The notes under the pieces are model-generated. The model made no database searches. It was not told where the DNA came from and saw nothing but the letters and a program-made list of their open reading frames with translations. A stretch of DNA of 64,000 bases from NCBI RefSeq assembly GCF_027359925.1, contig NZ_CP114767.1, positions 2,666,001 to 2,730,000 of the forward strand, written 5' to 3'. Positions 10,467-62,009 of this stretch are shown piece by piece. A program made the position numbers and the translations under genes. The DNA comes from Hymenobacter canadensis (GTDB lineage: Bacteria; Bacteroidota; Bacteroidia; Cytophagales; Hymenobacteraceae). Numbering within the stretch: the first letter of the stretch is position 1; the number at the start of each line of letters is the position of its first letter.

Positions 10467-10596
10467 AGAACGTCATTCCGAGCGTAGGCGGAGCCGGAGC
10501 CGAGGAATCTCGCGTGCTGATGTTGTGGTGCCATTACTTTACCACACTAGCGAGATTCCTCGGCTCCGGCTCCGCCCACGCTCGGAATGACGTTCT
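10467..10596. repeat. Long hairpin element A (GTCATTCCGAGC family), 47-nt arms
   Basis: Arms at 10467-10513 and 10550-10596 pair over 47 nt with one mismatch, around a 36-nt spacer that holds a further short stem. The outer ends carry GTCATTCCGAGC. The inner part (GGCGGAGCCGGAGCC then GAGGAATCTCGC) is found in both arms but not in most other family members. It lies between two rightward genes and has no T run of its own. Confidence 0.9.
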
Positions 10597-10632
10597 TCTG
10601 TGCTGTTTGTTCACTTCATCACCAAACTTAAG

Positions 10633-11217
10633 ATGCGCCTTTGCTTTGCTTCCAATAACGCTCATAAGCTCGACGAAATCCGGCCGCTACTGCCGGCCGG
10701 TACGGAGCTGCTGAGCCTCGCCGACATCGGCTGCCACGAGGAGCTGCCCGAAACGCAGGATACCCTGGCCGGCAACGCCCGCCAGAAAGCCGAATACGTG
10801 TGGGAACACTACGGCGTGGCCTGCTTCGCCGACGATACGGGCCTGGAGGTAGCGGCGCTGGGCGGCGCGCCCGGCGTGTACTCGGCGCGCTATGCCGGCC
10901 CCCAGCGCCTGGCCACCGACAACGTGCAGAAGCTGCTCACGGAGTTGCGCGGCCACGCCGACCGCTCGGCGCAGTTCCGCACGGTGGTGGCACTGGTGCT
11001 GCCCGGCGGCGTGGTGCACGAGTTTGAGGGCGCCGTGGGCGGCCACATCACCGAGGAGCTCAGCGGTGCCGGCGGCTTCGGCTACGACCCGGTATTTCAG
11101 CCCGGCGAAGGCGACGGCCGCACGTTTGCCGAAATGACCACCACCGAGAAAAACCAGATCAGCCACCGGGCCCGGGCCGTGGCCGGCCTGGTGGCATTTT
11201 TGGGCGTTATGGAGTAA
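10633..11217 (+). CDS. rdgB: XTP/dITP pyrophosphatase (Ham1/RdgB family)
   Basis: A 194-residue house-cleaning enzyme that hydrolyses non-canonical purine triphosphates (ITP, dITP, XTP) to monophosphates, keeping them out of DNA and RNA. Family motifs: 'CFASNNAHKLDEI' at the start, 'CFADDTGLEVAALGGAPGVYSARYAG' region near residues 65-90 (metal-binding acid residues in ADDTGLE), and 'GFGYDPVFQP' near residue 150, then 'ISHRARAVAG'. The start is the ATG just before the first strand; an upstream ATG at 10600 would run into the hairpin element. Confidence 0.94.
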   Translation: MRLCFASNNAHKLDEIRPLLPAGTELLSLADIGCHEELPETQDTLAGNARQKAEYVWEHYGVACFADDTGLEVAALGGAPGVYSARYAGPQRLATDNVQKLLTELRGHADRSAQFRTVVALVLPGGVVHEFEGAVGGHITEELSGAGGFGYDPVFQPGEGDGRTFAEMTTTEKNQISHRARAVAGLVAFLGVME

Positions 11218-11218
11218 T

Positions 11219-11305
11219 GAGGGAATGAAGTGATGGGATGAACGGTGAAACCCGGATTACCGGCCCTCTCCTCACCATTTACTTCATCACCTTATCATCC
11301 TAAGC
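11219..11305. repeat. Loose GTGATG/CATCAC inverted repeat
   Basis: 'atgaagtgatgggatgaacggtga' (11224-11247) is echoed in inverted form by 'tcctcaccatttacttcatcacc' (11269-11291). The match is imperfect, but the words resemble the GTGATGAGG arms at 20271-20414 and 63925-63994, so this may be a decayed member of that family. Confidence 0.4.
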
Positions 11306-11363
11306 CCCTAACTTCTTACCTTTGCAAGGTTGGCCCTACCTGTACGGGCCGTTTCCCCACACC

Positions 11364-11981
11364 ATGCAACATCCTTTCATCGTCGGTATCACGGGCGGCA
11401 GTGCCTCCGGCAAGACCACCTTCCTGCGCCGGCTGCTGGCTTCGTTTCCCGAAGAAGAAATTTGCCTGATTTCGCAGGACAACTACTACCACCCGCGCGA
11501 AAACCAGTCGGTGGATGCGCAGGGTGTCACCAACTTCGACCTGCCCTCCAGCATCGACTCGGCGGCCTACGCGGCCGATGTGCTGCGCATCAGCCAGGGC
11601 CTGGAAGTGCGCCGGCCGGAGTACACGTTCAATAACCCGGGTGTGGTGCCGCAGGAGCTGGTGTTCCGGCCTGCCCCTATCGTGGTAGTGGAAGGCATCT
11701 TCGTGTTTTACTTCGAGGAAGTGGCCAAGCTGCTGGATTTGAAAGTTTACATCGATGCCCGCGAGCATGTGAAGCTGCAGCGCCGCATCGTGCGCGACCG
11801 GGACGAGCGCGGCTACGACCTGGAGGACGTGCTCTACCGCTACACCAACCACGTAGCGCCTACTTACGAGAAATACATCAAGCCTTTCAAGCAGGATGCC
11901 GACATCGTCATCCCCAACAACCGGCACTTCGACCGGGGCCTGGACGTGCTGGTGTCGTTCCTGAAAAGCAAAGTAGCCTAA
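11364..11981 (+). CDS. udk: Uridine kinase
   Basis: A 205-residue P-loop kinase that phosphorylates uridine and cytidine in pyrimidine salvage. The Walker A motif is 'GGSASGKTT' at residues 11-19, followed by 'ISQDNYYHPRE' and 'NFDLPSSIDSAAY', the uridine-binding stretch; 'VVVEGIFVF' is the Walker B region and 'RIVRDRDERGYDLEDVLYRY' the lid. The ATG at 11364 fits the family; a TTG further upstream is also in frame. A full -7 box (TACCTTTG, 11317-11324) lies 40 nt upstream, without a clear -33 TTG. Confidence 0.95.
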   Translation: MQHPFIVGITGGSASGKTTFLRRLLASFPEEEICLISQDNYYHPRENQSVDAQGVTNFDLPSSIDSAAYAADVLRISQGLEVRRPEYTFNNPGVVPQELVFRPAPIVVVEGIFVFYFEEVAKLLDLKVYIDAREHVKLQRRIVRDRDERGYDLEDVLYRYTNHVAPTYEKYIKPFKQDADIVIPNNRHFDRGLDVLVSFLKSKVA

Positions 11982-12065
11982 CCATTACTCCGGCGAAAGA
12001 CAGGAATCCGGGGACCATTGTTGAAGGACTTTGCCTAGCTTCCGCTGGCCGGGACAACCCTAAGT

Positions 12066-12102
12066 AAAAGAGAGCCCCGCCGGCCGGCAGGGCTCTCTTT
12101 TT
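12066..12102 (+). terminator. Terminator downstream of udk
   Basis: A 12-bp stem (AAAAGAGAGCCC at 12066-12077 with 12090-12101) around a GC-rich, itself palindromic loop, followed by T residues. Confidence 0.8.
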
Positions 12103-12143
12103 GGCTTCTGGCCCCGGCAACCGGCCCGAATACCCGGCGGCCG

Positions 12144-12174
12144 TTGCCTCGCCCGGCCGGTTTGGCTATATTTG
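12144..12174 (+). promoter_or_regulatory. Strong Bacteroidota-type promoter
   Basis: TTG (12144-12146), exactly 20 nt, then TATATTTG (12167-12174), a complete -33/-7 match. Transcription should start near 12181, about 11 nt before the ATG of the next ORF. Confidence 0.65.
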
Positions 12175-12191
12175 TAGCTCTTAGGTTTTTC

Positions 12192-12563
12192 ATGCTGCCC
12201 TTTTTCTCCCACTTTTTGCCCCGCGTGCGTTTCGCGCTGCTCACAGCCACCGTGCTGTTTGTGCTGTCGTTGAACCACCAGGCCGTGGCCACCTTCCGGG
12301 TGCCGGCCGGCAAAACCACGCGCATCGGGCAGCCGCTGCGCGTGTCGGTGGTGAAGCAGAAAGTGACTTTGGAAGCCACCGGCCCTTTGGTGCTGCACAC
12401 GGCGCCCGAGCTGGCCGCGTGGCTGCCCTGGCCCGCTCCGCAGAGCTGGCTGCCGGCCATGCGCCGGGCCTTGGCCGTGCCGCGCCCTTTGGCGGGCATC
12501 CGGCCGGCGGCCGTGTTCCGCACGCGCCTCTTGGTGGCGGCCCTTTCGCCGCAGGCTCCTTAG
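12192..12563 (+). CDS. Hypothetical protein, membrane-anchored
   Basis: A 123-residue protein that I cannot assign to a family. It has one N-terminal hydrophobic stretch (about residues 10-30, 'VRFALLTATVLFVLSLNHQ') that may be a signal anchor, then a basic, proline- and alanine-rich region without clear motifs. Support for the gene comes from a complete promoter directly upstream and good codon use. It precedes secDF by about 180 nt; a functional link is not shown. Confidence 0.6.
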   Translation: MLPFFSHFLPRVRFALLTATVLFVLSLNHQAVATFRVPAGKTTRIGQPLRVSVVKQKVTLEATGPLVLHTAPELAAWLPWPAPQSWLPAMRRALAVPRPLAGIRPAAVFRTRLLVAALSPQAP

Positions 12564-12745
12564 AGGAGCTGCTGACAGGTTGCGGTGCTGGTGCGCTGAT
12601 TTGTCCGGAGCTGATGCGGGCAAAATATAGCGCCAGACGTAAGCAACGTGCTTTTTGGCAGTAGCCAGGCACAACGGCAACCTGTATCGACAGCACACTC
12701 CGGGCACATCAGCACATCCCGAATTAGCACATCAATTAATCAAAC

Positions 12746-15700
12746 ATGCGTAATAAAGGACTCATCATTGCGCTGACCATCATTGTGTCGGCGCTGTGTA
12801 TCTACTTTCTGACCTTCACGTTTATTTCGCGGCGGGTGCAGAACGACGCCGTGGTGTATGCCACCAAAGGCGGCCAGGTAAACCAGAAGCTGCGCCAGCG
12901 CTACCTCGACTCGGTGTGGCGCGCGCCCGTGACCAGCCTGCTCGGCGTAGACTACACCTACCGCGACGTGCGCTCGTCGGAGCTGGGCCTCGGCCTTGAC
13001 CTGAAAGGCGGCATGCACGTGACACTGGAAGTATCGCCGGTGGAGATTGTGCGCGCCATGAGCGGCAACTCCAAGGACCCGAAGTTCAACCAGGCCATGA
13101 CGCAGGCGCAGGAAGCCCAGAAGGCCAATCCTTCGACGCCTTTCACTACGCTCTTCGCCCAGGCCTACCAAACGGCCGCGCCCGGCCAGAACCTGGCCCG
13201 CATCTTCGCCAACACCACCAACAAGAGCCGCGGCATCGACATCAACTCGACCAACGAGAAGGTTATCGGCGCCATCAACAAGGAAGTGGAAGAAGCCATC
13301 GACCGCTCGTTCAACATCCTGCGGACCCGCATCGACAAATTCGGCACCAGCCAGCCCAGCATTCAGCGCGTGAAAGGCACGGGCCGCATTCAGGTGGAGC
13401 TGCCCGGCGTAGACAACCCGGACCGCGTGCGCAAGCTGCTGCAAGGCCAGGCCAAGCTGGAGTTCTGGGAAGTATGGCGTCAGGATGAGTTCGGCCCTTA
13501 CCTGCAGCAGCTCGACCAGGCCCTGATTGCCAAAGAGAAAGCCGCTACCACTGCCAAGCCGGCCACGTTGGCCGCCGCCACTGATACCGCTGCCGTAGCC
13601 GCTGGTGACTCTACCTCGCTGGCCAGCCAGCTGGCCAAGAAAAACGCCGCTCCGACTGCTAAGACTGACACCGCCGCCGCTGCCCAGCAGGGCTCGGTAC
13701 TGGCCCGCCTGTTCACGATGCCGGTTCCCGGCCAGCTGGGCGTAAACGTGCAGGACACGGCCCGCATGAACACCATCCTGCGTTCCGACGAAGCCCGCGC
13801 TATTCTGCCCCCCAACCTGACGTTCCTGTGGAGCGTAAAGCCAGACGCCATCAATGGCCAGGAATACCTGAAGCTGAACGCCATCCGCAAGCAGCCCGGC
13901 ACCGAGGCTCCGCTGGGTGGTGAGGTGGTGGCTGATGCCCGCCAGGACTACGACCAGGGTGGCCGCCCCGAAGTGAGCATGGCCATGAACCCCTCGGGCG
14001 CCAAGAAATGGCAGAAACTGACCGGCGCCAACATCGGCCGCCAGGTAGGTATCGTGCTCGACGACTACGTGTACTCTGACCCGGTGGTGCAATCGGAAAT
14101 TGCCGGTGGCAACACCAGCATTTCGGGCAACTTCTCCATCGAGGAAGCCCAGGACCTTTCCAACGTACTGAAAGCCGGTAAGCTGCCCGCCCCGACGCGC
14201 ATCGTGGAAGAAGCCGTAGTTGGTCCGTCGCTGGGCCAGGAGGCCATCAACCAGGGCCTGTACTCGTCGCTGGCCGGTCTGATCATCATCATGGCCTTCA
14301 TGGCTCTGTACTATGGCCGCGCCGGTATGGTGGCTGATGCCGCCCTGCTGTTCAACGGCTTCCTGATTCTGGGCGTACTGGCCCAGTTTTCCTTCGCCCT
14401 CACGCTGCCCGGCATTGCCGGTCTGATCCTGGTATTTGCCTCGTCGGTGGATGCCAACGTACTGATCTTCGAACGGATCCGGGAAGAACTGGACCACGGC
14501 CTGGGCCTGCACGACGCCATCAACAAAGGCTACTCGCGCGCTTTCTCGGCTATTTTTGACTCCAACGTTACCACGCTCATCATCGCCCTGATCCTGTTCA
14601 TCTTCGGTACGGGTCCGGTGCAGAACTTCGCCGTAACGCTACTCATCGGTATTTTCACCTCGTTCCTGTCGGCCGTATTCATCTCGCGTCTCATCATCGA
14701 GTGGCTGGTGAAGGGCAAGGAGAAGAGCAGCATGACGTTCTCGACCTTCCTGTCGCGCAAGCTGTTCAAGGATGTCAACTTCGACATCGTGGGCAAGCGC
14801 AAGATTGCCTACGCCTTCTCGACCATCGTTATCGTGGCCGGCTTCGTGCTGATGGCCATTCAGGGCGGCCCGAACCTGGGCGTTGACTTCCGCGGCGGCC
14901 GCGCTTACGTGGTTGACTTCAATAAGGACATGGACGCTTCCAAGGTGCACGACGCCCTGGTGGAGCGGGCTTTCCAGGGTGCTGGTACGGAGGTGAAAAC
15001 CTTCGGCGCCCCGAACCGTCTGCGCATCACCACCGGCTACCTGGCCGATGACGAATCGGTGGTTGCCGACAAAAAAGTGGAGTCGGCCATGGTTTCGGAG
15101 CTCACCAAGGACTTCGCCGCCGATGCCCCGGTTATCAAGTCCACGTCGAAAGTAGGCGCTACCATCGCCGACGACATCAAGCGCACTTCGGTGCTGAGCC
15201 TGGGCCTGACGCTGCTCGGCATCTTCATCTACGTGCTGTTCCGCTTCGAGAAGTGGCAGTATTCGATGGCCGCTGTAATTGCGCTCTTCCACGATGCGCT
15301 GCTGGTAATTGCCTGCTACCCGATTGCCCGTCTGTTCGGCCTGAACTACGAAATGGACCAGATTTTCGTGGCTGCCGTGCTTACCGTAATTGGTTTCTCG
15401 ATGAACGATACCGTAGTTATCTACGACCGGATCCGCGAGTATCTGCGCGAAAACCCGAAGCTGACGTTTGCGCAGGTAGCCAATCCGGCCCTGAACTCCA
15501 CGTTCTCGCGCACCATGATTACGTTCACCACGGTGTTCCTGGTGGTGGCCGTGCTTTACGTGTTCGGGGGTGAAACGCTGCGCTCGTTCTCGTTTGCCAT
15601 GCTCGTGGGCATGATCTTCGGCACGTACTCGTCGCTGTTCATCGCCACGCCGATCATCCTCGACACCTACGGCCGCAAAGAGGCCCGCGAGCGGGGCACC

Positions 15701-15763: not shown

Positions 15764-15810
15764 ATCATCGGTTGCGCTGAGCTTATCTGCTTGGTTGACT
15801 GCTTTACTGA

Positions 15811-27292: not shown

Positions 27293-27390
27293 CGTCATCC
27301 TGAGCAGAGCGAAGGATCTTCTCACGTCTGGATGACCAACAAATGGCTCATTCCAGCGTGAGAAGATCCTTCGCTTCGCTCAGGATGACG
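27293..27390. repeat. Long hairpin element B (GTCATCCTGAGC family), 34-nt arms
   Basis: Arms at 27293-27326 and 27357-27390 pair over 34 nt with two mismatches, around a 30-nt spacer. Outer ends carry GTCATCCTGAGC; inner arm sequence is GAAGGATCTTCTCACG. It lies between the co-directional ruvB and queG. Confidence 0.9.
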
Positions 27391-27403: not shown

Positions 27404-28453
27404 CTACGAGAACAGCTCGCCGGTGGTGCCGGAGTTGCCGCGCAGGTGCTGCGGCATGGCGCGGCCCAGGTGCAGGTAGGCAGCTTCCGTAGCCTCGCGG
27501 CCGCGGCTGGTGCGCTTGATGTAGCCTTCCTGAATCAGGAACGGCTCGTACACTTCCTCGATGGTTTCGCCTTCCTCGCCGCAAGCCGTGGCAATGGTGC
27601 TGATGCCCACCGGCCCGCCTTTGAACTTGTCGATGATGGTGGTCAGGATGCGCTTGTCCATGTCGTCGAGGCCGCGGGCGTCCACGTCGAGGGCGTTGAG
27701 GGCAAACTGGGCAATGTCCATCGTGATGCTGCCGTCGCCTTTCACCTGGGCGAAGTCGCGGGTGCGGCGCAGCAGGTTGTTGGCGATACGCGGCGTGCCA
27801 CGCGAGCGGCGCGCAATTTCGTAGGCGGCGTCCTCGTAAATCGGGGTGCCCAGGATTTCGGCCGAGCGCTGCACAATGCTGGTTAGCAGCTTGGAATCGT
27901 AGTATTCGAGGCGGGAGCTGATGCCGAAGCGGGCCCGCAGCGGCGAGGTGAGCATGCCCGAGCGGGTGGTAGCCCCGATCAGCGTAAACGGCGACAGCGA
28001 AATCTGCACCGACCGCGCATTCGGGCCCGAATCGAGCATGATGTCGATGCGGTAGTCCTCCATAGCCGAGTACAGGTACTCTTCCACTACGGGGTTGAGG
28101 CGGTGGATTTCGTCGATGAACAGCACGTCGTGCGGCTCCAGGTTGGTGAGCAGGCCGGCCAGGTCGGAGGGCTTGTCAAGCACCGGGCCGCTGGTCATTT
28201 TGATGCCCGACTGCAGCTCGTTGGCGATGATGTGCGAAAGGGTGGTTTTGCCGAGGCCGGGAGGGCCGTGCAGCAGCACGTGGTCGAGGGCGTCGCCGCG
28301 GCGGCGGGCAGCGGCCACAAACACCTTCAGGTTCTCGACCACCTTATCCTGGCCCGCAAAATCGTCGAAGGAAAGCGGCCGGAGCGCCTTGTCAATGTCT
28401 TTTTCGGTGGCGTCCATGTGGTCGTCGCCGCCGGTTAGAAATGGTTCGCGCAT
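27404..28453 (-). CDS. ruvB: Holliday junction DNA helicase RuvB
   Basis: A 349-residue AAA+ motor that drives branch migration at Holliday junctions with RuvA. Walker A is 'GPPGLGKT' at residues 63-70; Walker B '[18 protein letters not shown]'; sensor '[19 protein letters not shown]'. The C-terminal winged helix ends with '[17 protein letters not shown]'. The ATG at 28453 starts the usual family N-terminus; ten more upstream codons are open. RuvA and RuvC are not in the window. Confidence 0.97.
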
Positions 28454-28652
28454 AGTGCGGAGGGTAAAGGTTGATAGCAGCAAGGTAACACCTGCACCCG
28501 GCAGATTGTGCCCTTTTTAGCAAAAAAATAGTCCGGCGCTATTATTTACTAACCTCACTAGCAAAGCAGCACGCATAGCGGGTGGGCGAGGCAGTAAGCC
28601 CGGTATCTGCGCGGCTTGCTGCCTACCTTTGCGCCCTTCCGCACGTTGTTCT

Positions 28653-29630
28653 ATGCCCACGCCTTCCGCCTCCCACGACTGGCTGCACGCCATTCCCGCC
28701 GACTTCTACGACCAGCTGGCGCACTGCCTGTCGCTGCACGGCATGGCCTGCGCTGAGCTGCTGAGCCGCCCGCAGGATGCGCCGCTGCTGCAGCTCACGG
28801 CCCTCACCGGTCTCAATACGCTACGTGTAGCCGAGCTGAACACCATTGCCAGCCACGAGCAACTGCTGCAGGCGCTGGAGCAGCATCCCCGCGCCCTCTA
28901 CGACCTAATACTGCTGGGCCGCCTCACCCTCGATACCAGCTTGGCCACGCCCGTGCTGCAGTACGTGCAGCGCCAGATGGCCATTGAACCCGAGCAGGTG
29001 CAGGCGTTGAAAACCTATTGTCTGGAGCTGAGTGGTGCTTTTCTGGCGCTGCTGGAAGAACACCTGCCGGCCACGCCTTCGCTGGGGCTGCACCGGCTGA
29101 GCGTGGAGGAAGCGTTTGCGCAGTACTTGGCCGCCCACCCGGCCCCGGCGCCGCTGGCGGCCACGGTGCGCTTCTCGGAGCCGCAGCTGCAGATGATGCG
29201 GCTGGCCCTGCTGCTAGTGCACTCCCTGCCCGAAGCCGGCGAGCATGCGTTTCTGACCGCCGTAGCCGACCTGGAGGACCTGCGCCCGGCCGCGCTGGAG
29301 CCGATGATAGCGCGCCTGAGCACTCTGGAGCCTGGCGAAGAATTGGCGCTGAGCATGCCGGAGCTGGTGCAGCTCTACCAGGCCATGCAGGTGTGCGGCA
29401 TGGTGTTCGTGAGCGAGGTGCTGGAAAAAGTGGGCCTGGGCAGTGTATTCCCGACCGTGGCACCCGACGAAGTCGCGGCCTCGGCGCTGGCCACCAACGA
29501 GCCCAGCGGCCGGCAGGCCGTGGGCGAGATGGTCAGCGGCTTCACACGCTGGGTGCAGCATACGTTTCCGCAGGAGCCGGCGCTGCACAAAGCCCGCGAG
29601 CAGGTGCTGGCCCTGGCTGATTCTCTTTAG
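28653..29630 (+). CDS. Hypothetical helical protein, 325 aa
   Basis: A leucine- and alanine-rich protein with no family I recognise and no signal peptide or membrane helix. It looks all-helical, with many heptad-like stretches. The ATG at 28653 follows a full -7 box (TACCTTTG, 28624-28631) by about 20 nt, though a -33 TTG at the right distance is missing. Codon use is like the neighbours. It is divergent from ruvB. The stop codon TAG lies inside the left arm of a perfect inverted repeat, so the repeat marks the gene's end exactly. Confidence 0.7.
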   Translation: MPTPSASHDWLHAIPADFYDQLAHCLSLHGMACAELLSRPQDAPLLQLTALTGLNTLRVAELNTIASHEQLLQALEQHPRALYDLILLGRLTLDTSLATPVLQYVQRQMAIEPEQVQALKTYCLELSGAFLALLEEHLPATPSLGLHRLSVEEAFAQYLAAHPAPAPLAATVRFSEPQLQMMRLALLLVHSLPEAGEHAFLTAVADLEDLRPAALEPMIARLSTLEPGEELALSMPELVQLYQAMQVCGMVFVSEVLEKVGLGSVFPTVAPDEVAASALATNEPSGRQAVGEMVSGFTRWVQHTFPQEPALHKAREQVLALADSL

Positions 29631-29758
29631 GGCTTAGGGATTAGGGCCTGGGGATTAGGGATTAGGATATTAGGCCGTTAGACACAGGAATCAGCTTGTG
29701 TGCTGTAGAGGCGCAATACCTAAGCACTAATCCCCAGGCCCTAATCCCTAAGCCCTAA
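29627..29758. repeat. TTAGGGATTAGGG perfect inverted repeat overlapping a stop codon
   Basis: A 31-nt arm (29627-29657) is perfectly complementary to 29728-29758. The word TTAGGGATTAGGG is repeated within each arm. The left arm contains the stop codon (29628-29630) of the preceding gene; the right arm ends 8 nt before the stop of the HIRAN gene on the other strand. A spacer of about 70 nt lies between. Confidence 0.9.
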
Positions 29759-33972: not shown

Positions 33973-34076
33973 CTGTCATCCTGAGCGAAGCGAAGGACCT
34001 GATGGTGGTTGAACAACCGATGCCACTGCAACATGTTCTGGCGTGGCAAGGTCCTTCGCTCTGCTCAGGATGACAG
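33973..34076. repeat. Long hairpin element C (GTCATCCTGAGC family), 28-nt arms
   Basis: Arms at 33973-34000 and 34049-34076 pair over 28 nt with two mismatches. Outer word CTGTCATCCTGAGC; inner arm GAAGCGAAGGACCT-type. The spacer holds a small stem (GGTTG/CAACC). It lies between the co-directional TonB-receptor gene and the acyl-CoA dehydrogenase gene. Confidence 0.9.
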
Positions 34077-34095: not shown

Positions 34096-36579
34096 CTACA
34101 GCTTCACGCCCACCGATACGAGGAAGTTGCGCGTGGCCTGCGGGTAGTACCAGTTGAAGGTGTCGAGGCCGCCGCTGGCGCCGGGGTAGCTGTAGGTGTA
34201 GCCGTTGGCCACGTACTCGCGGTTGAGCACGTTGCTGACCAGCAGGCCCAGCTCAATCTCCTTCACAAACTGCGGCCGGATGGCGTAGCGCACCCGGAAA
34301 TCGAGCACCTGGTAGGGCTTGATGCTGCGGTTGAGGTTTTCGGAATTGTCGAGGTACTGGCGGCTCACGGTTTTGTAGAGCAGCGCCAGGCGCAGCCCGT
34401 TCAGCGGCTGCCCCTCCAGCGTGTGCGCCGACACCGCGCCGGGCGAGTAGGAAATGGTGCTGGTGCGGGCTTCCCCCAGCACGGGGTTGAAGTCCTTGTC
34501 GAAGGTCACGTCGCGGAAGCCCAGAATGCGGTTCTGGCTGAGCGTGAGCGTACTGCTGAGGCTGATTTTGTCGTTGGCCGACAGGAAGCCGGTCAGCTCG
34601 GCGCCGCGGCGGTAGCTGCGGGCCACGTTGGTACGCAGCGGCGTGCCCACGTCGTTCAGCTGCCCGATGGACACCAGCTGGTTGCGGTAGTTCATGTAGA
34701 AGAAGTTGGCTTCCAGCCGCGCCACGGCCCGGGTGCCCAGCACGCTGGCCTCGGGCAAACTGAGGCGGTAGCCGCCTTCCACATCCACCAGACGCTCGGC
34801 CTGGGGGGTGGGGTCGTTGGCAAGCCGGTCGGTGAAGTCGGCGCGTACCGGCTCGCGCCGGCCCACGCCAATGCTGGCGTAGAGCTGCCGGCCCTCGGCC
34901 AGCGTGAAGGTGGCGCCGGCCTTGGGGTTGAAGAACGTGTAGCTGGCGCGGGTGCGCACGTCGTTCTGGTCGTCTTCCACGCCGTCAATCGTGTAGCGGA
35001 TACGGCGCAGCTGCAAATCGGCATAGACGCCCAGCCGCGACAGCGCCTGCCACGTAACGCGGGCGTAGCCGTTGTAGTCGGTCTTGACGGCGTTGTTGAA
35101 GTAGTAGCGCTGGCCGAGGGTGCTGTTGGAGGCATACTGGGCCCAGATGACTTCGCCGTAATGGTCGCCGTCGTAGCGGTTCCAGGCGCCGCCCAGCGTG
35201 GCCTGCAGCCGGTCGTTGGCCTTGGGCTGGTAGTTGAGGGCAAAAGTGCCGCCGTAAAAGTAGTTGTCCAGCCACTTGCGGTCCACCAGGTTAGTGCGGG
35301 TGAGCGTGTCGCCCCCGATAATGACGTCCTGCAGGCCGTAATCCACGAATTCGCGGCTATCCCGGTAGCTTTCGTAGTAGCCGAGGCCGCGCGTCAGGTG
35401 CAGGGCCCCGCCCAGGTTCCAGTCCTGGCCCAGGCCCTGCGAGAGGTGCAGCTGGTAGTGGTTCTGCTGGTAGTTGTCGGTCTGGTTGTCGTAGGTGTAG
35501 TAGCTGTAGCGGCGGCCTTCGCGGCGCACCCGCTCGGCATCGGCCTCGCTCAGCTCGCCGTTGTCGATGTAGTTCTGCAGCAGCGTTTGGTCGCCGGTGA
35601 TGGCAGGCTCGGGCACGCCATTCCAGGCCTGGTAGGTTTTCTCGCGGCCCGAGAAGGTGATAAACTTAACCAGCGTATTGGCCTGCTGGTAGCCGGCCGC
35701 GAAGTAATACGACTTCAGATCCGACGACGCCCGGTTCATATAGCCGTCGGACTTGATGCGCGACAACCGGCCGTCCAGGGTGAAATGACCGCTCACCAGC
35801 CCGGTGCCAAACTGCACCGTGTTTTTCACCGTGCCAAAGGAGCCGACGCTGTTCTGGGTTTCGCCGTAGGCCTCGCGGCGGTTGTCGAGGGTGCTGATAT
35901 TCACGCTGGCCCCGAAGGCCGCGCCGCCGTTTTGGCTGGTGCCCACGCCGCGCTGCACCTGTAGGCTGCTCACCGACGAGGCCAGGTCCGGCAGGTTCAC
36001 CAGAAACGCACCGCGCGACTCGGCATCATTCAGCGGCACCCCGTTGATGGTCATGTTGATGCCGGTTGTGCTCGTGCCCCGGATGCGGATGTCGGTGTAG
36101 CCCACGCCCGCGCCGGCGTCGGAGGTCACCACTACGGAAGGCGTCTGGTCGAGCAGGTAGGGCAGATCCTGGCCGAAATTGCGCTTGGCCAGGTCTTCCT
36201 TGCTGAGGTTGGTGTAGGCCGTGGCCGTGCGCTCGTTGGCGCGGCTGGCCGTCACGAGGGCCTCGCCGGTAAGGATGCCGCCGGGCTGCAACGTGGCCGC
36301 CAGGCGCTGGGCGGCCGCTTGGCCCTGTAACTGGCGCACCAGCGGCTCGTAGCCCACAAACGTGATGCGCAGCTCGTGCGCGCCGGCCGCCACGGCCGGG
36401 ATGGTGAAGATGCCCGCCGCATCGGTAGCGGCGCTGGCCGCGCCGTCAATCAGGATGGTGGCGCCGGGCAGCGGCGTGCCCGTCTGGGCATCGGTAAGCG
36501 TGCCGGACACGGGGCCTTGCGCCCATGCCGGACCGGACAGCGCCAAAAGCGCTACGCCGGTGGTTAGAAAATTTTTCAA
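34096..36579 (-). CDS. TonB-dependent receptor, probable thiamine (or precursor) uptake
   Basis: An 827-residue outer-membrane receptor. After a signal peptide ('KNFLTTGVALLALSGPAWAQ') comes a carboxypeptidase-like regulatory domain (about residues 22-100, 'GTPLPGATILIDGAAS'), then a plug (about 120-235, 'IRIRGTSTTGINMTINGVPL', 'GAAFGASVNIST'), then the 22-strand barrel ending 'RNFLVSVGVKL'. A TPP riboswitch lies in its leader, so its ligand is probably thiamine or a precursor. The start is a TTG; the only in-frame ATG upstream (36672) falls inside the riboswitch. No energising TonB or inner-membrane thiamine gene is adjacent. Confidence 0.92.
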   Translation of the reverse strand: MKNFLTTGVALLALSGPAWAQGPVSGTLTDAQTGTPLPGATILIDGAASAATDAAGIFTIPAVAAGAHELRITFVGYEPLVRQLQGQAAAQRLAATLQPGGILTGEALVTASRANERTATAYTNLSKEDLAKRNFGQDLPYLLDQTPSVVVTSDAGAGVGYTDIRIRGTSTTGINMTINGVPLNDAESRGAFLVNLPDLASSVSSLQVQRGVGTSQNGGAAFGASVNISTLDNRREAYGETQNSVGSFGTVKNTVQFGTGLVSGHFTLDGRLSRIKSDGYMNRASSDLKSYYFAAGYQQANTLVKFITFSGREKTYQAWNGVPEPAITGDQTLLQNYIDNGELSEADAERVRREGRRYSYYTYDNQTDNYQQNHYQLHLSQGLGQDWNLGGALHLTRGLGYYESYRDSREFVDYGLQDVIIGGDTLTRTNLVDRKWLDNYFYGGTFALNYQPKANDRLQATLGGAWNRYDGDHYGEVIWAQYASNSTLGQRYYFNNAVKTDYNGYARVTWQALSRLGVYADLQLRRIRYTIDGVEDDQNDVRTRASYTFFNPKAGATFTLAEGRQLYASIGVGRREPVRADFTDRLANDPTPQAERLVDVEGGYRLSLPEASVLGTRAVARLEANFFYMNYRNQLVSIGQLNDVGTPLRTNVARSYRRGAELTGFLSANDKISLSSTLTLSQNRILGFRDVTFDKDFNPVLGEARTSTISYSPGAVSAHTLEGQPLNGLRLALLYKTVSRQYLDNSENLNRSIKPYQVLDFRVRYAIRPQFVKEIELGLLVSNVLNREYVANGYTYSYPGASGGLDTFNWYYPQATRNFLVSVGVKL

Positions 36580-36655
36580 CAGTGAAAAATGAAAAAAGTG
36601 GAACGGACCGGACACCAGGGGTCGGTGCCTTCGGCTTGTCGCTCGCGGATCGTTT

Positions 36656-36739
36656 GTTCCCTTCGCCGGCATTACCCGGACAGGTTCAATGGGTATGATC
36701 TCAGCCTCGCACCACTCCCGGTACGGGGCACCCCTAAAC
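36656..36739 (-). promoter_or_regulatory. TPP (THI-box) riboswitch
   Basis: Read leftwards from 36739 the sequence follows the thiamine pyrophosphate aptamer: GGGGTGCCCC, a variable stem, GGCTGAGAT, ATACCC, GAACCTG, CCGGGTAATGCCGGCG, AGGGAAC. The first and last bases (GTT and AAC) can form the closing stem P1. A -7 box (TACCTTTG, 36751 to 36744) ends 4 nt upstream, so the transcript would begin with the aptamer. Downstream a short stem (GGCACC/GGTGTC) before T-rich sequence could be the switch that lowers expression when TPP is bound. It controls the TonB-receptor gene that starts at 36579. Confidence 0.93.
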
Positions 36740-37009
36740 TATGGCGCAAAGGTAAGCGGGCATTCGGTTTTCACACCAGCGCCGGTGGGGTTTCGGCGTT
36801 TCGGCCAGGTCAGCTGGCGGCGGCAGGCGGCGCTTGCAGCGGTTGCGCTACGTAGCGGGGGCTTTCCTTTTGATTGATTATCAGTTAACTTAGAAAGACC
36901 ATTGCCCGCCAAAATCCCCGCATTTTCTAAAACAACCGCCCCGCGCGCCCCGTTACTTAGTAGGCGGTACCCAGCGAGTCCGCCCGTTCGTTTTTCAGCT
37001 CTCCCAGCC

Positions 37010-37283: not shown

Positions 37284-37387
37284 CAAGGCCGTCCTGCTAA
37301 GCTTGCAGAAGCAGCTCTACCGCAGTGCTAATCAAAGAATTTAGCCAGAGGTATTGATGCTTCAACAAGCTCAGCACGACGGCCTTG
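37284..37387. repeat. Hairpin element K (GTCnTGCTGAGC family), also a terminator
   Basis: Arms at 37284-37313 and 37358-37387 pair over 30 nt with about four mismatches; the better-preserved arm reads, inverted, GTCGTGCTGAGCTTG then TTGAAGCA. A run of six T follows at 37391-37396, so this copy may have been adopted as a terminator between the convergent genes at 37255 and 37408. Confidence 0.8.
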
Positions 37388-37407: not shown

Positions 37408-37824
37408 CTACAGTTCCATGCCCATTCGCACGTAGGGCATGTCGCCTTTGTAGAACACTGTGCCTTCGGGCTGCAGGTAGAAGCGGGTGTAGAAGGCGGC
37501 GCTATCCTGGCGGGCGTCGCACCAGAGGCGGCGGGCGCCCAGGCGGCGGGCTTCGGCTACTACGTAGTGCAGTAAGGCGCTGCCGATGCCTTGGCGCTGG
37601 TAGGCCGGCAGCATGGCAAACTTGCGGAACCGCGCCTCGTCGCCGTCCACGAACAGCGAAACAACTCCTACCAGCTGGTCGTCGAAGAAGGCGCCGTAGT
37701 GGTAGCCGGCGGTGTCCTCGTCCAGCTTCACGTAGTCCAGCGGCTTATCGGGCCAGAGCACTTCGTGGCGCAGCAAGTAGGTGTGGCTGGGCGCAATGGC
37801 CCAGATGGTGGGTTCGGCGGCCAT
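37408..37824 (-). CDS. GNAT-family N-acetyltransferase
   Basis: A 138-residue acetyltransferase. The acetyl-CoA pyrophosphate loop is 'YQRQGIGSALLHYVV' at about residues 75-89, after the strand 'ARFRKFAMLP'. 'ARRLWCDARQDSAAFYTRF' is the usual second half. The substrate is unknown. It starts 2 nt after the aldose epimerase gene's stop, so they are likely co-transcribed. Confidence 0.85.
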   Translation of the reverse strand: MAAEPTIWAIAPSHTYLLRHEVLWPDKPLDYVKLDEDTAGYHYGAFFDDQLVGVVSLFVDGDEARFRKFAMLPAYQRQGIGSALLHYVVAEARRLGARRLWCDARQDSAAFYTRFYLQPEGTVFYKGDMPYVRMGMEL

Positions 37825-38702: not shown

Positions 38703-38764
38703 AGGAAGCATACTACGCATCAGCCCAAAGCCGGTGCGGTGGAATGGTGATACGGCGTATACTG

Positions 38765-38847
38765 TAGCGCGAACTTTGTAGTTCGCGTTTCGGCGCCGTT
38801 CAGCTGGTTGTGACGGCGCGGGGACGCGAACTGCAAAGTTCGCGCTA
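38765..38847. repeat. TAGCGCGAACTTTG inverted repeat, 24-nt arms
   Basis: Arms at 38765-38788 and 38824-38847 pair over 24 nt with one mismatch, around a 35-nt GC-rich spacer. It lies between the NadR-like kinase (stop 38853) and the epimerase start, with neither T run nor promoter match in the arms. Confidence 0.88.
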
Positions 38848-38852
38848 CTGTG

Positions 38853-40556: not shown

Positions 40557-40614
40557 CGCAGAGGGCGCAGAGGAAGGCGCAGAGCGTTCTGCACCTTCCT
40601 CTGCGCCCTCTGCG
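40557..40614. repeat. GCAGAGGGCGCAGAGG inverted repeat
   Basis: Arms 40557-40577 and 40594-40614 are perfectly complementary over 21 nt. Further GCAGAGG-type units continue to 40636. It fills the gap between the rhodanese gene and hrpB. Confidence 0.85.
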
Positions 40615-45146: not shown

Positions 45147-45256
45147 ACGCCTGTCATCCTGAGCTTGCTAAGGAGCTTATGCCAACCAAACGACGGCCGC
45201 CATAACGACCCGTTCAACTGCAATAAGATCCTTCGCAAGCTCAGGATGACAGGCGT
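45147..45256. repeat. Long hairpin element D (GTCATCCTGAGC family), 34-nt arms
   Basis: Arms at 45147-45180 and 45223-45256 pair over 34 nt with two mismatches. Outer word ACGCCTGTCATCCTGAGC; inner arm TTGCGAAGGATCTTAT. It lies between the co-directional SDR gene and the FRG gene. Confidence 0.9.
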
Positions 45257-45271: not shown

Positions 45272-47872
<2,601 letters not shown>

Positions 47873-55320: not shown

Positions 55321-56292
<972 letters not shown>

Positions 56293-56311: not shown

Positions 56312-56403
56312 GTCATTCCGAGCTTGCCAGGGAATCTCGCTAGTGTGCCAATCAAAAAAGCGCATACTGCACTGGCGAGATTCCCCGGCAGACTCGGAAT
56401 GAC
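56312..56403. repeat. Long hairpin element E (GTCATTCCGAGC family), 29-nt arms
   Basis: Arms at 56312-56340 and 56375-56403 pair over 29 nt with three mismatches. Outer word GTCATTCCGAG; inner arm GGGAATCTCGC, the same inner word as element A. It lies between the co-directional moxR-type gene and the 146-aa gene. Confidence 0.88.
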
Positions 56404-56864: not shown

Positions 56865-56911
56865 TCACGGATTTTACTCGGGTTACACGGATTTTGTGGA
56901 CGATGAAAACG

Positions 56912-56943
56912 AAAAGAGCTTGCCTGCGGCAAGCTCTTTTTTT
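56912..56943 (+). terminator. Terminator after the 146-aa gene
   Basis: A 13-bp perfect stem (AAAAGAGCTTGCC with 56928-56940) around TGC, followed by more T. Confidence 0.9.
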
Positions 56944-57009
56944 GTTCTTGCTTCCCGCCTGTACGTAAGCAGGCGCGGTAACCTTGCCCCAACCATATCC
57001 GCCGCTGCC

Positions 57010-57567
57010 GTGCCGCCCGCCGCTCCGCCTACCACCTCCCGCCACACGGCCCGCCTCACGCTCCGCCCCTATCAGCCCACCGACGAGGCCGACTTTTTTG
57101 CGGTGCTGCATCACAATCGCACCCGGCTGCAGAATGCCTTTCCGGCGCGCCTGGCCGCCGTGCAGGCCCTACCCGATGCCGGCCGGGTGCTCCGGCAGTT
57201 TGCCCAGGACTGGCAGCAGGGCCGGCTGTACGTGTTTGGCATCTGGCACACGGCCGCTGGCACCTATCTCGGCGACATCAGTCTGCGGCCGTCCTGGAGT
57301 GCGCCGGTGAGTGCCGAAATCGGGTATTATCTGGCCGGGGCCGCCGAGGGCAACGGCTACGCCCGCGAGGCCCTCGGCGCCATCGTGCAGTTCGGGTTTG
57401 AGATGCCGGTGCAGGCCCAGAGTCTCACGCTGCGCTGCCGCGCCAACAACCCGCGCAGCATGGCCGTGGCCGAGCACGCCGGCTTTCGGCCCGTAGTGGC
57501 CCGCCGGCGCCTCTGGAGCCTACGCGGTGCCTCCGACATCGTGCACTACCGCCTGGACCGGGCGTAA
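57010..57567 (+). CDS. RimJ/RimL-type GNAT acetyltransferase
   Basis: A 185-residue acetyltransferase. 'LRPYQPTDEADFFAVLHHN' opens the fold, 'EIGYYLAGAAEGNGYAREAL' carries the acetyl-CoA loop, and 'LRCRANNPRSMAVAEHAGF' is the family signature. It may acetylate a protein N-terminus or a small amine; substrate unknown. A GTG start is used because the frame upstream runs through the preceding terminator. No ATG is available at the family start. Confidence 0.86.
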   Translation: MPPAAPPTTSRHTARLTLRPYQPTDEADFFAVLHHNRTRLQNAFPARLAAVQALPDAGRVLRQFAQDWQQGRLYVFGIWHTAAGTYLGDISLRPSWSAPVSAEIGYYLAGAAEGNGYAREALGAIVQFGFEMPVQAQSLTLRCRANNPRSMAVAEHAGFRPVVARRRLWSLRGASDIVHYRLDRA

Positions 57568-57583
57568 ACCGCGCTCCAACGGC

Positions 57584-58747: not shown

Positions 58748-58872
58748 AGAAAGTTCGGGTCAGATTCAACGAATTTTTTTAGCATTGCGGGCACAAAATA
58801 TAGGCGGACTGCGTTACCACTAGCCGGCCCGAAAACAGCCGGTAATCTGGTTTCCCGAAGCCTCACAAGGGT

Positions 58873-58903
58873 TTGCGCGACCCACCGAAAACGCCTACAT
58901 TCA
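58873..58903 (+). promoter_or_regulatory. Candidate promoter of recA
   Basis: TTG (58873-58875), 20 nt, then TACATTCA (58896-58903), a partial match (six of eight positions, counting the two free ones) to TAnnTTTG. It lies 34 nt before the recA ATG. I see no clear LexA-type operator. Confidence 0.45.
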
Positions 58904-58936
58904 CCAAACCTAAGCATTTCCTAACAACCCATTCTA

Positions 58937-60079
58937 ATGGCTGCAACCACCACTGACAAGGCTGAGAAAGCGGAGAAGGCTGAAAAAACCAGCAAGCCCA
59001 CCAACCTCAGCAACGCTAACGCCGAGAAAATGAAGGCGCTTCAGCTCACGCTGGACAAGCTCGACAAGGCGTACGGCAAAGGCACGGTCATGAAACTCAG
59101 CGACAACAAGGTGATGGACGTCGAAGTCATCAGCACCGGTTCGCTGGGCCTCGACATTGCGCTGGGAGTAGGCGGCCTGCCCAAAGGCCGTGTCGTTGAA
59201 ATCTACGGTCCTGAGTCGTCGGGTAAGACCACGCTCACGATGCACTGCATCGCCGAAGCCCAGAAGCGCGGCGGCGTAGCGGCCTTCATCGACGCCGAGC
59301 ACGCCTTCGACCCTTTGTATGCCAAGAAGCTCGGCATCGACACCGAAAACCTGCTCATTGCCCAGCCCGACAACGGCGAGCAGGCCCTGGAAATTGCCGA
59401 TCAGCTGATTTCCAGCGGTGCCATCGACATTATCGTTATTGACTCCGTGGCCGCGCTGGTGCCGAAAGGCGAGCTGGAAGGCGACATGGGCGACTCGAAA
59501 GTGGGTCTGCACGCCCGCCTCATGAGCCAGGCCCTGCGCAAGCTCACCGGCACCATCAACAAAACCGGCTGCTGCTGCATCTTCATCAACCAGTTGCGCG
59601 AAAAAATCGGCGTGATGTTCGGCTCGCCCGAAACCACGACCGGTGGTAACGCCCTCAAGTTCTACGCTTCCGTGCGCCTCGATATCCGCCGCATCGGCCA
59701 GATCAAGGAGGACAAGGACAACGTGACCGGCAACCGCACCAAGGTGAAGGTGGTGAAAAACAAAGTAGCTCCACCTTTCAAAGTGGTCGAGTTCGACATC
59801 ATCTACAACGAAGGCATTTCCAAGGTGGGCGAAATCCTGGACCTGGGTGTTGACATGGGCATTATTGCCAAGTCGGGCTCGTGGTTCAGCTACAACGGCG
59901 ACCGGCTCGGCCAAGGCCGTGAAGGCGTAAAAACCATCCTGCAGGATAACCCTGAGCTGGCCGACAAGATCGAGGCCCAGATCCGGGCCCTGGTAAAAGG
60001 CGAGCCGGAAGCTGCACTGGCTGCCATTCCGGAAGACCGCTCCACCGACGAGGACGACGACGCCGACGAGGCGCTGTAG
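58937..60079 (+). CDS. recA: Recombinase RecA
   Basis: A 380-residue recombinase that coats single-stranded DNA, searches for homology and exchanges strands. Walker A '[10 protein letters not shown]' at about residues 92-101, '[19 protein letters not shown]' and '[20 protein letters not shown]' follow the family closely, as does the L2 loop region '[19 protein letters not shown]'. The N-terminus has a lysine- and glutamate-rich leader of about 25 residues. The acidic tail ([10 protein letters not shown]) is typical. A terminator follows. Confidence 0.98.
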
Positions 60080-60100
60080 CCTTCCGTTGCCTCTTGCCTG

Positions 60101-60132
60101 AAAGCCTTCCCGGTACGCCGGGAAGGCTTTTT
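60101..60132 (+). terminator. Terminator of recA
   Basis: A 13-bp perfect stem (AAAGCCTTCCCGG with 60118-60130) around TACG, followed by T residues. Confidence 0.9.
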
Positions 60133-60235
60133 CGTGCCCGGCGTCGTATAGTCTGCCAACGGGACATTCGCAGTATATTTGCTGGCACCGCTTTTGTCTG
60201 GAGTCCCGGGATATGCTTCCCGTTTTCGTTGCCTT

Positions 60236-61063
60236 ATGAACCGCCGCTGGCTTCTTTCTCCTCTTCTATTGCTGCCGGCGCTGGTGCTGCAGGCCTTTGG
60301 CCCTGCTGACACGCTGCGGAAAGTGCCCAACACCAGCTTTCAGTCGGGCGAAGTGTTGCAGTATAAGGTGCACTACGGCCTCATCAACGCTGCCGAAGCC
60401 ACCATTGAAGTAGCCAACGACCTGCAACGCGTGAACGAGCGGCCCTGCTACAAGGCCACCGTCACAGGCCGCACCACGGGCTCCTTCGACTTCTTCCTGC
60501 GCATCCGCGACACCTGGCGATCCTACATTGACACGACCAGCATTCTGCCGCAGAAGTTTTTCCGCAACATCGAGGAAAACCACTACCGCAAAAAGGAAAC
60601 TGTGGATTTCGACCATGTGCGGGACGTAGCCGAGGTGGAAAAGCACGGCAAAGACAAGGAAAACGTGAAGCGCGGCACCTACAAAGTCCCCGACAACGTG
60701 CAGGACCTGGTGAGTGCCTTCTACTACCTGCGCACGCTCAACTACGACCAGCGCCGCCTGGGCGAAGTCATCCGGGTGCAGGGCTTCTTCGACGACCAGG
60801 TGTTTGCCATGGAAGTGGTGTACCGGGGCCGCGAAACCGTGGAAACTAAGGCCGGTACCATCCGGGCCATCAAGCTGGTGCCCAAGATGCCTGGCAACAA
60901 GCTGTTCAAAGGTGAAAACGCCGTGTCGGTGTACCTCTCCGACGACCGCAACAAGGTGCCGGTGCTCATTCAGGCCGAGCTGATGCTGGGGGCCGTGAAA
61001 GTGGATATGTACAAATACAAAGGCCTCAAAGGCCGGCTCAACCTGGTGGCCCGCAATCAATAA
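60236..61063 (+). CDS. DUF3108-family exported protein
   Basis: A 275-residue protein of the DUF3108 type, common in Bacteroidota and of unknown function. A signal peptide ('RRWLLSPLLLLPALVLQAF') is followed by 'SFQSGEVLQYKVHYGLINAA', 'ATVTGRTTGSFDFFLRIRDT' and 'VQGFFDDQVFAMEVVYRGRE'. The fold is mostly beta strands and probably sits in the periplasm. The ATG at 60236 begins the signal peptide. A TATATTTG box (60174-60181) lies about 55 nt upstream. Confidence 0.85.
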   Translation: MNRRWLLSPLLLLPALVLQAFGPADTLRKVPNTSFQSGEVLQYKVHYGLINAAEATIEVANDLQRVNERPCYKATVTGRTTGSFDFFLRIRDTWRSYIDTTSILPQKFFRNIEENHYRKKETVDFDHVRDVAEVEKHGKDKENVKRGTYKVPDNVQDLVSAFYYLRTLNYDQRRLGEVIRVQGFFDDQVFAMEVVYRGRETVETKAGTIRAIKLVPKMPGNKLFKGENAVSVYLSDDRNKVPVLIQAELMLGAVKVDMYKYKGLKGRLNLVARNQ

Positions 61064-61072
61064 AAGCCCGTG

Positions 61073-61104
61073 GCGGCTCCCTTCCGGGGAGCCGCTTTGC
61101 GTTT
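61073..61104 (+). terminator. Possible weak terminator after the DUF3108 gene
   Basis: A stem of about nine bp (GCGGCTCCC with GGGAGCCGC) around a small loop, with TTT and then GCGTTTT. Weaker than the others. Confidence 0.5.
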
Positions 61105-61198
61105 TAGCGCGGGTTAACGAAAACGTAACACGCCGAAGGTGCCGCCCGGCGGTACTTTTGCGGCAGCGTAGTCAGTTTCATCTTAAACGCCCCGCCCC

Positions 61199-61900
61199 GT
61201 GCAAGCACCCACCAACCCCAACGCCTACAAGATTCTCGTTGTCGATGATGACCCCGACATTGTGGAGCTGCTGGAGTACAACCTGCGCAAAGAAGGCTAT
61301 ACGGTGGCCTCGGCCCCGGATGGGCGCAAAGCACTGGAAGTAGCTCCCCAGTTCGGGCCCGACATCATCGTGCTGGATGTGATGATGCCCCACCTCGACG
61401 GCATTGCCACCTGCCGGCAGCTGCGCGAACAGCCCAAATTCAAAGACACCTATATCATCTTCCTGACGGCCCGCGCCGAGGAGTTTTCCGAAGTTGCGGC
61501 CTTTGAGGCCGGCGCCGACGACTTCATTGCCAAGCCCATCAAGCCGCGCGCCCTGCTCAGCCGCCTCGGGGCCTTCGTGCGCCGCGACCGGGACCCGCAG
61601 AGCACCCAGGACACCATTGAAATCAACGGCCTGAAGATTGACCGGACTGCGTTTTCGGTGTACCAGGAAGGCCGCAAAATCACGCTGCCCAAGAAAGAAT
61701 TTGAGTTGCTGGCATTCTTGGCCGCCACGCCCCACAAGGTGTTCGGGCGCGAGGAGCTGCTGCAGAACATCTGGGGCAACGACGTCTTCGTGCTGGCCCG
61801 CACCGTGGACGTGCACGTGCGCAAGGTGCGCGAGAAAGTCGGCGAGCATCACATCCAGACCATCAAAGGCGTCGGCTACAAGTTCAACACGGATAATTAA
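61199..61900 (+). CDS. OmpR/PhoB-family response regulator
   Basis: A 233-residue DNA-binding regulator. The receiver domain has the acidic pocket D16-D17 ('KILVVDDDPD') and the phospho-acceptor D60 ('IIVLDVMMPH'). The output domain is a winged helix (about residues 140-232, 'LPKKEFELLAFLAATPHKVF', 'VDVHVRKVREKVGEHHIQTI'). It starts at GTG; a full -7 box (TACTTTTG, 61153-61160) lies 40 nt upstream. Its kinase follows, separated by a perfect hairpin repeat. Confidence 0.93.
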   Translation: MQAPTNPNAYKILVVDDDPDIVELLEYNLRKEGYTVASAPDGRKALEVAPQFGPDIIVLDVMMPHLDGIATCRQLREQPKFKDTYIIFLTARAEEFSEVAAFEAGADDFIAKPIKPRALLSRLGAFVRRDRDPQSTQDTIEINGLKIDRTAFSVYQEGRKITLPKKEFELLAFLAATPHKVFGREELLQNIWGNDVFVLARTVDVHVRKVREKVGEHHIQTIKGVGYKFNTDN

Positions 61901-61916
61901 GCCGGAGCACCCCTGG

Positions 61917-62009
61917 AACGTCATGCTGAGCTTGCCGAAGCATCTCTCCCGCAACAGTAATCAAGTTACTTTGGCGGGAGAGATGCTTCGGCAAGCTCAG
62001 CATGACGTT
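61917..62009. repeat. Perfect hairpin element F (GTCATGCTGAGC family), 36-nt arms
   Basis: Arms at 61917-61952 and 61974-62009 match perfectly over 36 nt. Outer word AACGTCATGCTGAGC; inner arm TTGCCGAAGCATCTCTCCCGC. The 21-nt spacer can form a further small stem (AGTAA/TTACT). It lies between the response regulator and its kinase and ends 16 nt before the kinase ATG. Confidence 0.93.

Follow-up and report, generated by a model that had tools for sequence, protein, structure and literature searches.

Seven intergenic hairpins of Hymenobacter canadensis appear, with a probability of roughly 0.57, to be dimers resembling repetitive extragenic palindromes (REPs) that spread as families, lie after stop codons, and are at times made symmetric again in place by template switching at the DNA level. 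They lie in a stretch of 64,000 nucleotides, hereafter the window, which covers positions 2,666,001–2,730,000 of contig 1 of the 5.09-Mb genome. The best 80 relatives of one protein encoded in the window were mostly from Hymenobacter, with H. piscis first (91%).

Elements were collected from the window plus 60 stretches (1.26 Mb); of the 123 obtained, one nested duplicate was dropped, and six of the remaining 122 are window copies, the decayed copy at 37284 having been missed by the pairing rule. Below, L and G numbers label individual loci and genomes, respectively. Parsing succeeded for 118 of the 122 elements (236 arms) and failed for 4. Within a single arm, the outer word ATnYY is complementary to the inner word RRn′A(T), and n agrees in 231 of the 236 arms. 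The arms form three sets, namely ATCCT..AGGAT or AGGAC (C-type), ATGCT..AGCAT (G-type), and ATTCC..GGAAT (T-type). Since n of the outer word is paired with n′ of the inner word in the same arm, both change together, and this complementarity makes each arm a small tagged palindrome and the two arms a dimer with its tags outward. The original prediction, which had described shared outer ends and an inner word, was right about the motif, but it had not recognised the tagged palindrome of each arm.

All seven hairpins described there were borne out. Each folds strongly (−56 to −117 kcal/mol with 20-nt flanks included), and an inverted-repeat finder blind to the motif returned the same seven intervals, at most 1 base off, among 15 long hairpins in the window. 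Their positions, arms, and neighbouring stop codons are as follows (ORF, open reading frame).

10466–10597: T-type dimer; arms 10466–10513 and 10550–10597 with a 36-nt spacer; a long GGCGGAGCCGGAGCC-containing loop in both arms; GTC begins 19 nt past the stop of a plus-strand ORF ending at 10452; motif on both sides.
27293–27390: C-type dimer; arms 27293–27326 and 27357–27390; loops AGAGC and GAAGC; 14 nt past the stop of the minus-strand RuvB gene (27404–28483).
33973–34076: C-type dimer; arms 33973–34000 and 34049–34076; 21 nt past the stop of a minus-strand TonB-dependent receptor gene (34096–36672).
37284–37387: decayed G-type dimer; arms 37284–37313 and 37358–37387; within an AAGGCC/GGCCTT stem; 20 nt past the stop of a minus-strand GNAT gene (37408–37824).
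45147–45256: C-type dimer; arms 45147–45180 and 45223–45256; outer ACGCCT/AGGCGT extension, then TTTT; 21 nt past the stop of a minus-strand short-chain dehydrogenase gene (45272–46117).
56312–56403: T-type dimer; arms 56312–56345 and 56370–56403; 19 nt past the stop of a plus-strand ORF (55321–56292).
61917–62009: G-type dimer; arms 61917–61960 and 61966–62009; 19 nt past the stop of a plus-strand ORF (61199–61900).

The arms of one element were compared with each other and with those of other elements. Over 45 nt, identity was 0.768 to the own partner and 0.638 to a random other element (120 elements). In 7 of the 120 elements the left arm was strictly closer to its own partner than to any of 238 other arms, and in 1 the partner tied with the closest of these; a strictly better match was found elsewhere in the sample for 112 left arms, and an equal or better one for 113. 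All six window elements in this set, which excludes 37284, matched some other arm better. Identical outer loops in the two arms were found in 24 of 40 C-type, 16 of 45 G-type, and 8 of 24 T-type elements, against permutation means of 8.9, 8.2, and 2.0 and maxima of 18, 16, and 7, respectively (10,000 permutations; the observed value was reached for the G-type). Overall, 48 of 109 elements carried the same loop twice, with about 19 expected, and several distinct loops, each present in both arms, occurred within one subfamily. In the 14 nt past the inner word (ungapped), G-type arms were clearly more similar to their own partner than to others of the same type (0.748 versus 0.602). The original claim that the arms of one element match "far better" than those of different elements is therefore correct only on average, and the own partner is seldom strictly the best match. 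An excess of identical loops in the two arms remains. The tie between outer n and inner word holds within one arm.

Changes within hairpins were followed at orthologous sites. At the 27293 site, nine relatives share the left junction of the window copy. Read inward for 42 nt, the right arm of L091 (H. metallilatus) is exactly the left arm of L082 (H. rigui), and the left arm of L091 equals that of L082 but for the last two bases; L091 can thus be described as L082 with an inverted loop and four right-arm columns brought into pairing. Among 708 orthologous hairpin pairs, 51 had an identity of at least 0.72 in either orientation, and of the 16 pairs at 0.86 or above, 7 matched better when inverted, some by small margins. 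Template-switch alignment of the 22 pairs with an identity of at least 0.80 was compared with 150 point-mutation simulations per pair, and the gain stood out in six pairs at five slots, being reached by 0, 0, 1, 0, 3, and 8 of the 150 simulations, respectively, the last being borderline. The six include the 61917 copy and its orthologue L179, with identities of 0.884 inverted and 0.863 direct.

A closer pair of genomes, G019 and G004, was compared over 400 kb each. Orthologous flanks were found for 36 of 45 hairpins, of which 23 were alignable, and 3 of these 23 matched better when inverted (simulated mean 0.04; 3 was reached in 0 of 300 simulations). The arms of the three inverted hairpins are 18–34 bp long. 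Both sides had changed in 6 of 519 stem pairs, 5 of which were still paired, against expectations of 0.93 and 0.31, respectively; in the reverse direction, the numbers were 6 and 5 of 442 stem pairs, with 0.62 and 0.21 expected. Clustered changes that restore identity at a fixed site, as in quasipalindrome correction, were found in 6 of the 22 pairs tested and in 3 of the 23 alignable hairpins, and not in the rest. The original proposal that one arm is corrected from the other is supported by the loop inversions with pairing-restoring changes, but for this minority only.

Mismatches in the hairpin stems were read on the gene strand. If RNA folding kept the pairs, G·U would be expected to be tolerated over A·C on the transcribed strand. 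The 115 CGTC elements had 199 G·T and 187 A·C mismatches, 200 other hairpins of the same genome had 106 and 117, and 384 hairpins of all kinds from relatives had 195 and 182, respectively; pooling 542 long hairpins of every kind, a set that overlaps the others, gave 307 and 312. In contrast, short T-tailed hairpins from the same DNA, with the same strand assignment and with duplicates removed, had 86 G·T and 25 A·C (Fisher p 3e-8 versus the long hairpins). The gene strand was the T-tail strand in 90 of 124 of these controls; the strand calls are thus imperfect, yet the skew of the control is plain. The acceptor stems of tRNAs were also considered as a control and gave too few mismatches (3 G·T, 0 A·C). 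Because G·T and A·C are equal in the long hairpins and the control is skewed, single pairs do not look as if they were kept by RNA selection, and the results favour DNA-level arm correction in elements that spread as families over selection on RNA pair by pair, which the original prediction had offered as one cause. The entire hairpin may nevertheless have a role. G·T pairs in the stems of CGTC-tagged REPs have been read as a sign of RNA function by Di Nocera, De Gregorio, and Rocco (2013; PMC3733652); in the Hymenobacter hairpins, G·T is not above A·C.

Several results weigh against arm correction by template switching. At the 27293 site, only the state of column 33, among the four right-arm differences between L091 and L082, is unique to L091 in nine species; the base of L091 at column 30 also occurs in L085 and L077, so that L082 and L092 may have decayed instead. 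L082 and L092 are sisters, but the branching of L080 and L091 is unsettled, which leaves the direction of change at this site mostly open. Covariation there is modest, with 86.6% of positions paired against 80.5% after shuffling and a shuffle maximum of 86.6% (nine rows, a count that leaves out L098 with its 22-nt loop in both arms), and the 9 pair types were matched by 172 of 2000 column shuffles. No significant switch signal was obtained for 16 of the 22 orthologous pairs, and the 37284 copy decayed uncorrected, its gain being reached by 117 of 150 simulations. A single clade (L062, L068, and L095) supplies four of the six supported pairs; its T-type copies are much alike, so that another copy may have replaced the original one there. 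In G019 and G004, the three inverted hairpins fall outside the CGTC elements, and their loops measure only 2–3 nt. Past the inner word, the own partner is barely closer than same-type others in C-type (0.679 versus 0.648) and T-type arms (0.610 versus 0.584); together with the rarity of the own partner as the closest arm, this implies that family spread explains much of the likeness.

The spread as families was evident from copy numbers. The outer motif, with at most 1 mismatch, occurs 13 times in the window (shuffles: mean 1.08, maximum 5) and 194 times forward and 200 times reverse in the genome, where a reversed control gave 2 and 0, respectively; overall, the genome holds roughly 200–300 copies of the motif on each strand. 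A slightly wider motif was found in all 20 chosen Hymenobacter genomes, with 38–585 copies per strand and 1–8 for reversed-pattern controls, and a stricter form in 26 of 61 Bacteroidota genomes, three of which, including that of H. canadensis, had more than 30 copies per strand. The turnover of sites between species is high. Genomes G018 and G023 were considered for conversion counts and were too distant: both flanks of 17 of 25 G018 elements were found in G023, and 8 of those 17 sites hold a CGTC element, by eye mostly a different one. Amplification of whole hairpins, also part of the original prediction, is supported by the three subfamilies, the many copies, and the 112 of 120 left arms that are better matched elsewhere.

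Placement relative to genes was determined with a simple codon-based gene finder. Co-directional genes enclose 96 of the elements, convergent genes 19, and divergent genes 4; of the others, 2 lie inside predicted genes and 1 at an edge; of all 735 adjacent gene pairs, 514 are co-directional, 120 convergent, and 101 divergent. Divergent gaps thus hold 4 of 119 elements and make up 101 of 735 gene pairs overall. With an upstream gene present, 101 of 115 elements begin 0–40 nt past its stop codon (median 21). The co-directional neighbours noted originally for most of the window hairpins were found for all six in the gene-context set, and 37284 lies between the minus-strand ORFs 34096–36672 and 37408–37824. 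T is enriched just outside the element ends (0.38 and 0.36 at positions 5–14 versus 0.26 and 0.23 further out), and TTTT occurs at outward positions 4–17 on either side in only 35 of 122 elements. Relatives yielded 232 intervals orthologous to the seven sites; 67 of at least 420 bases were left out, and the remaining 165 comprised 36 with a CGTC-motif hairpin, 79 with another significant hairpin, and 50 without one.

These results can be combined into a putative mechanism. Tags-outward dimers, each arm consisting of a tag and an imperfect palindrome of about 20 nt and the arms being separated by a spacer, would spread through Hymenobacter genomes as families and settle in the short stretch past stop codons, where terminators usually lie. 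One arm would at times be rewritten from the other, most likely by a replicating strand that changes over from one arm to the other (template switching, also called quasipalindrome correction), and the same switch could leave the loop inverted. Point mutations would then make the arms diverge again until the next correction or loss. We infer that template switching, rather than recombination between arms or re-insertion, makes these changes, and likewise the direction of most changes, the origin of new copies, and any role at transcript ends. Of the copying events that could produce an inverted loop as well as a corrected arm, template switching is the simplest.

The same data bear on the alternatives. 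Amplification alone, in which symmetric master hairpins of several subfamilies would give rise to copies with arms too young to have diverged and without any correction, fits the three subfamilies, the best arm elsewhere equalling or exceeding the own partner in 113 of 120 elements, and the high site turnover. It is nevertheless on the doubtful side, as it does not account for several different loops, each in both arms, within a subfamily, nor for the inverted hairpins and two-sided changes at orthologous sites, some of them in hairpins outside the CGTC family. It is distinctly unlikely that the hairpins are transcribed terminators or stabilisers of mRNA 3′-ends in which selection restores each broken pair. 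Their position 0–40 nt past stop codons, the presence of a significant hairpin in 115 of 165 short orthologous intervals, and the T enrichment outside their ends would all suit such a role, but G·T and A·C are equal on the gene strand in every set of long hairpins, TTTT is found outside less than a third of the elements, and selection for pairing alone does not invert loops.

Recombination, either between the own arms or with other copies (inversion at inverted repeats plus mismatch repair), would give the same products as template switching, from which sequence alone does not separate it, and arms of 30–45 bp and many dispersed copies are available for it. Inversions were, however, also found at hairpins with 18–34-bp arms and loops of 2–3 nt; such arms are short for RecA-type recombination, and we regard this explanation as unlikely. 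Mobilisation as REP doublets forming hairpins (REPINs) by a REP-associated tyrosine transposase (RAYT), a Y1 HuH transposase, is very improbable. The anatomy of an inverted REP dimer agrees with it, and the genome of H. canadensis has four Y1 matches, of which three exceed the curated cut-off and one (L002) lies about 0.8 kb from an element. On the other side, Y1_Tnp (E ≤ 1e-5) was found in just 22 of 41 Hymenobacter genomes and, at this threshold, not in G006, G022, G034, or G016, nor in the copy-rich G023 (566/555 motifs) and G003 (232/218 motifs). There was no enrichment of the motif near Y1 genes, with 5 motifs in 104 kb around 32 loci (31 of 45 listed places plus one weaker match), and no RAYT gene flanked by the same REPs was found at these loci. 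The check for a RAYT suggested originally therefore revealed Y1 genes in the genome but, in a search that covered Y1 transposases, none tied to the elements.

The hairpins closely resemble published CGTC-tagged REP dimers, with differences in stem and tail. Of the 122 left ends, 71 have C and 47 have T ahead of GTC, with the same counts on the right, which corresponds to the terminal CGTC, often TGTC or CCTC, of that class. The 211 forward and 217 reverse motifs at 161 loci paired tags-outward 173 times (within 300 bases) and tags-inward not once (within 150 bases), that is, head-to-head (HH) dimers predominate and tail-to-tail (TT) dimers are rare. Five spaced motif pairs of 393–2799 bases, which might mark an autonomous parent element, occurred among these loci. 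Symmetry, which a general correction could extend into the flanks, hardly reaches them: from about the sixth base beyond the motif, they agree little above chance, apart from a few copies nested in other inverted repeats. According to PMC3733652, CGTC-tagged REPs have a complementary AT at stem positions 1–2 that is almost invariable, a stem of 8–9 bp, a loop of 4–5 nt, and a 3-base tail that is CCA in most but not all cases. That text also describes features in common with the present dimers: the CGTC tag that is often TGTC, the predominance of HH and rarity of TT dimers, a location downstream of coding regions and in unidirectional or convergent gene gaps, and an occurrence in Bacteroidetes. 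It names no dedicated transposase for CGTC-tagged REPs. The Hymenobacter arms have about five Watson–Crick pairs followed by GA/GA, with a loop of 4–5 nt in most and a far longer one in some. The stem is mostly followed by CTC (142 of 236 arms) or CTT (70 of 236) and not by CCA, which is outside the eight commonest tails covering 234 of the 236 arms. The inner AT, seen in 98 of 99 G-type arms and in 53 of 54 T-type arms, occurs in only 22 of 83 C-type arms (60 have AC), so most C-type arms lack the first A–T pair.

With REPINs, as reportedly described by Bertels and Rainey (2011, PMC3116915), the elements share the arrangement of two inverted REPs as one long hairpin scattered intergenically; they differ in the absence of a RAYT association in our data and in the tag, which is CGTC, whereas RAYT-linked REPs have GTAG (PMC3733652). 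Template switching has been described for hairpins of rRNA, bacterial rRNA included, and of microRNA (Monttinen and Loytynoja 2022, PMC8794818), and homogenisation of inverted repeats with spacer inversion for yeast coding repeats (Abraham and Hazkani-Covo 2021, PMC8604942). Those cases and ours have in common that arms become homogenised and loops inverted, at times by a single event; ours differ in concerning intergenic bacterial REP-like dimers and terminator-like hairpins and in the strand test against RNA selection. Among the literature matches listed, none reported REP dimers with corrected arms or inverted loops, or such repeats in Hymenobacter, and the matches listed for the motif letters were unrelated by title. 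A 1988 article by Higgins, McLaren, and Newbury reportedly asks in its title whether REPs evolve by gene conversion, and is said to concern REPs of the E. coli type. The combination of features and the strand test may be new.

Tentatively, a perfect hairpin might be a mutational attractor in these bacteria: any long inverted repeat after a gene, whether a REP or not, would be kept symmetric and flipped in place by template switching, covariation between arms would arise without selection on RNA, and REP dimers could persist, and perhaps dimerise, without a transposase. Covariation between the sides of a stem is standard evidence for functional RNA structure, and this evidence can mislead if DNA copying does keep intergenic hairpins symmetric. 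Comparing G·T with A·C on the gene strand is a simple test that separates RNA and DNA causes, and the abundance of hairpin copies per genome and of sequenced species would make Hymenobacter well suited to measuring the effect. The question also bears on why dimers of CGTC-type REPs, without a known transposase, often have matching arms.

At the 37284 site, L085 has a more intact copy, relative to which the two window arms carry differing changes. L038, L057, and L094 lack the element in this slot and have terminator-like hairpins with GGCC stems instead; as the window element lies between AAGGCC and GGCCTT, it may have been inserted into a terminator. Four elements elsewhere, L164 2991–3124, L168 12632–12752, L128 9427–9649, and L159 7023–7193, are flanked by inverted repeats of 13–18 bp and look as if inserted mid-way into another hairpin.

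The window neighbours covered in the scan include RuvB, QueG, a TonB-dependent receptor, an acyl-CoA dehydrogenase, and a GNAT protein, as well as an FRG-domain protein, a short-chain dehydrogenase, and a Ham1-family protein. The only Rfam family above its gathering threshold in the window was the TPP riboswitch, with none at the hairpins. The riboswitch lies at 36639–36745 on the minus strand, upstream of the minus-strand TonB-dependent receptor gene 34096–36672, a position that suggests a thiamine-related outer membrane receptor.

Other kinds of long hairpins were also observed. An inverted dimer of a GTAG-tagged palindrome (GTAGCGCGAACTTTGTAGTTCGCG) lies at 38764–38848 in the window and, judged by its tag, belongs to a different REP class; the 27293 slot of L051 and L055 holds similar GTAG-type hairpins. 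Long hairpins at 29627–29758, 63924–63995, and 9426–9596 consist of degenerate runs of 7–10-mers (TTAGGG-like, TGATGAGGGG-like, and GTGCTTAGTGCTT). Similar hairpins with A+T-rich runs occupy the 56312 slot in several relatives (e.g., L213, L215, and L229), where the sequence varies by species and the arms match. The hairpin at 40557–40614 is made of CGCAGAGG words, and similar ones were found in the same slot in L038, L042, and L098.

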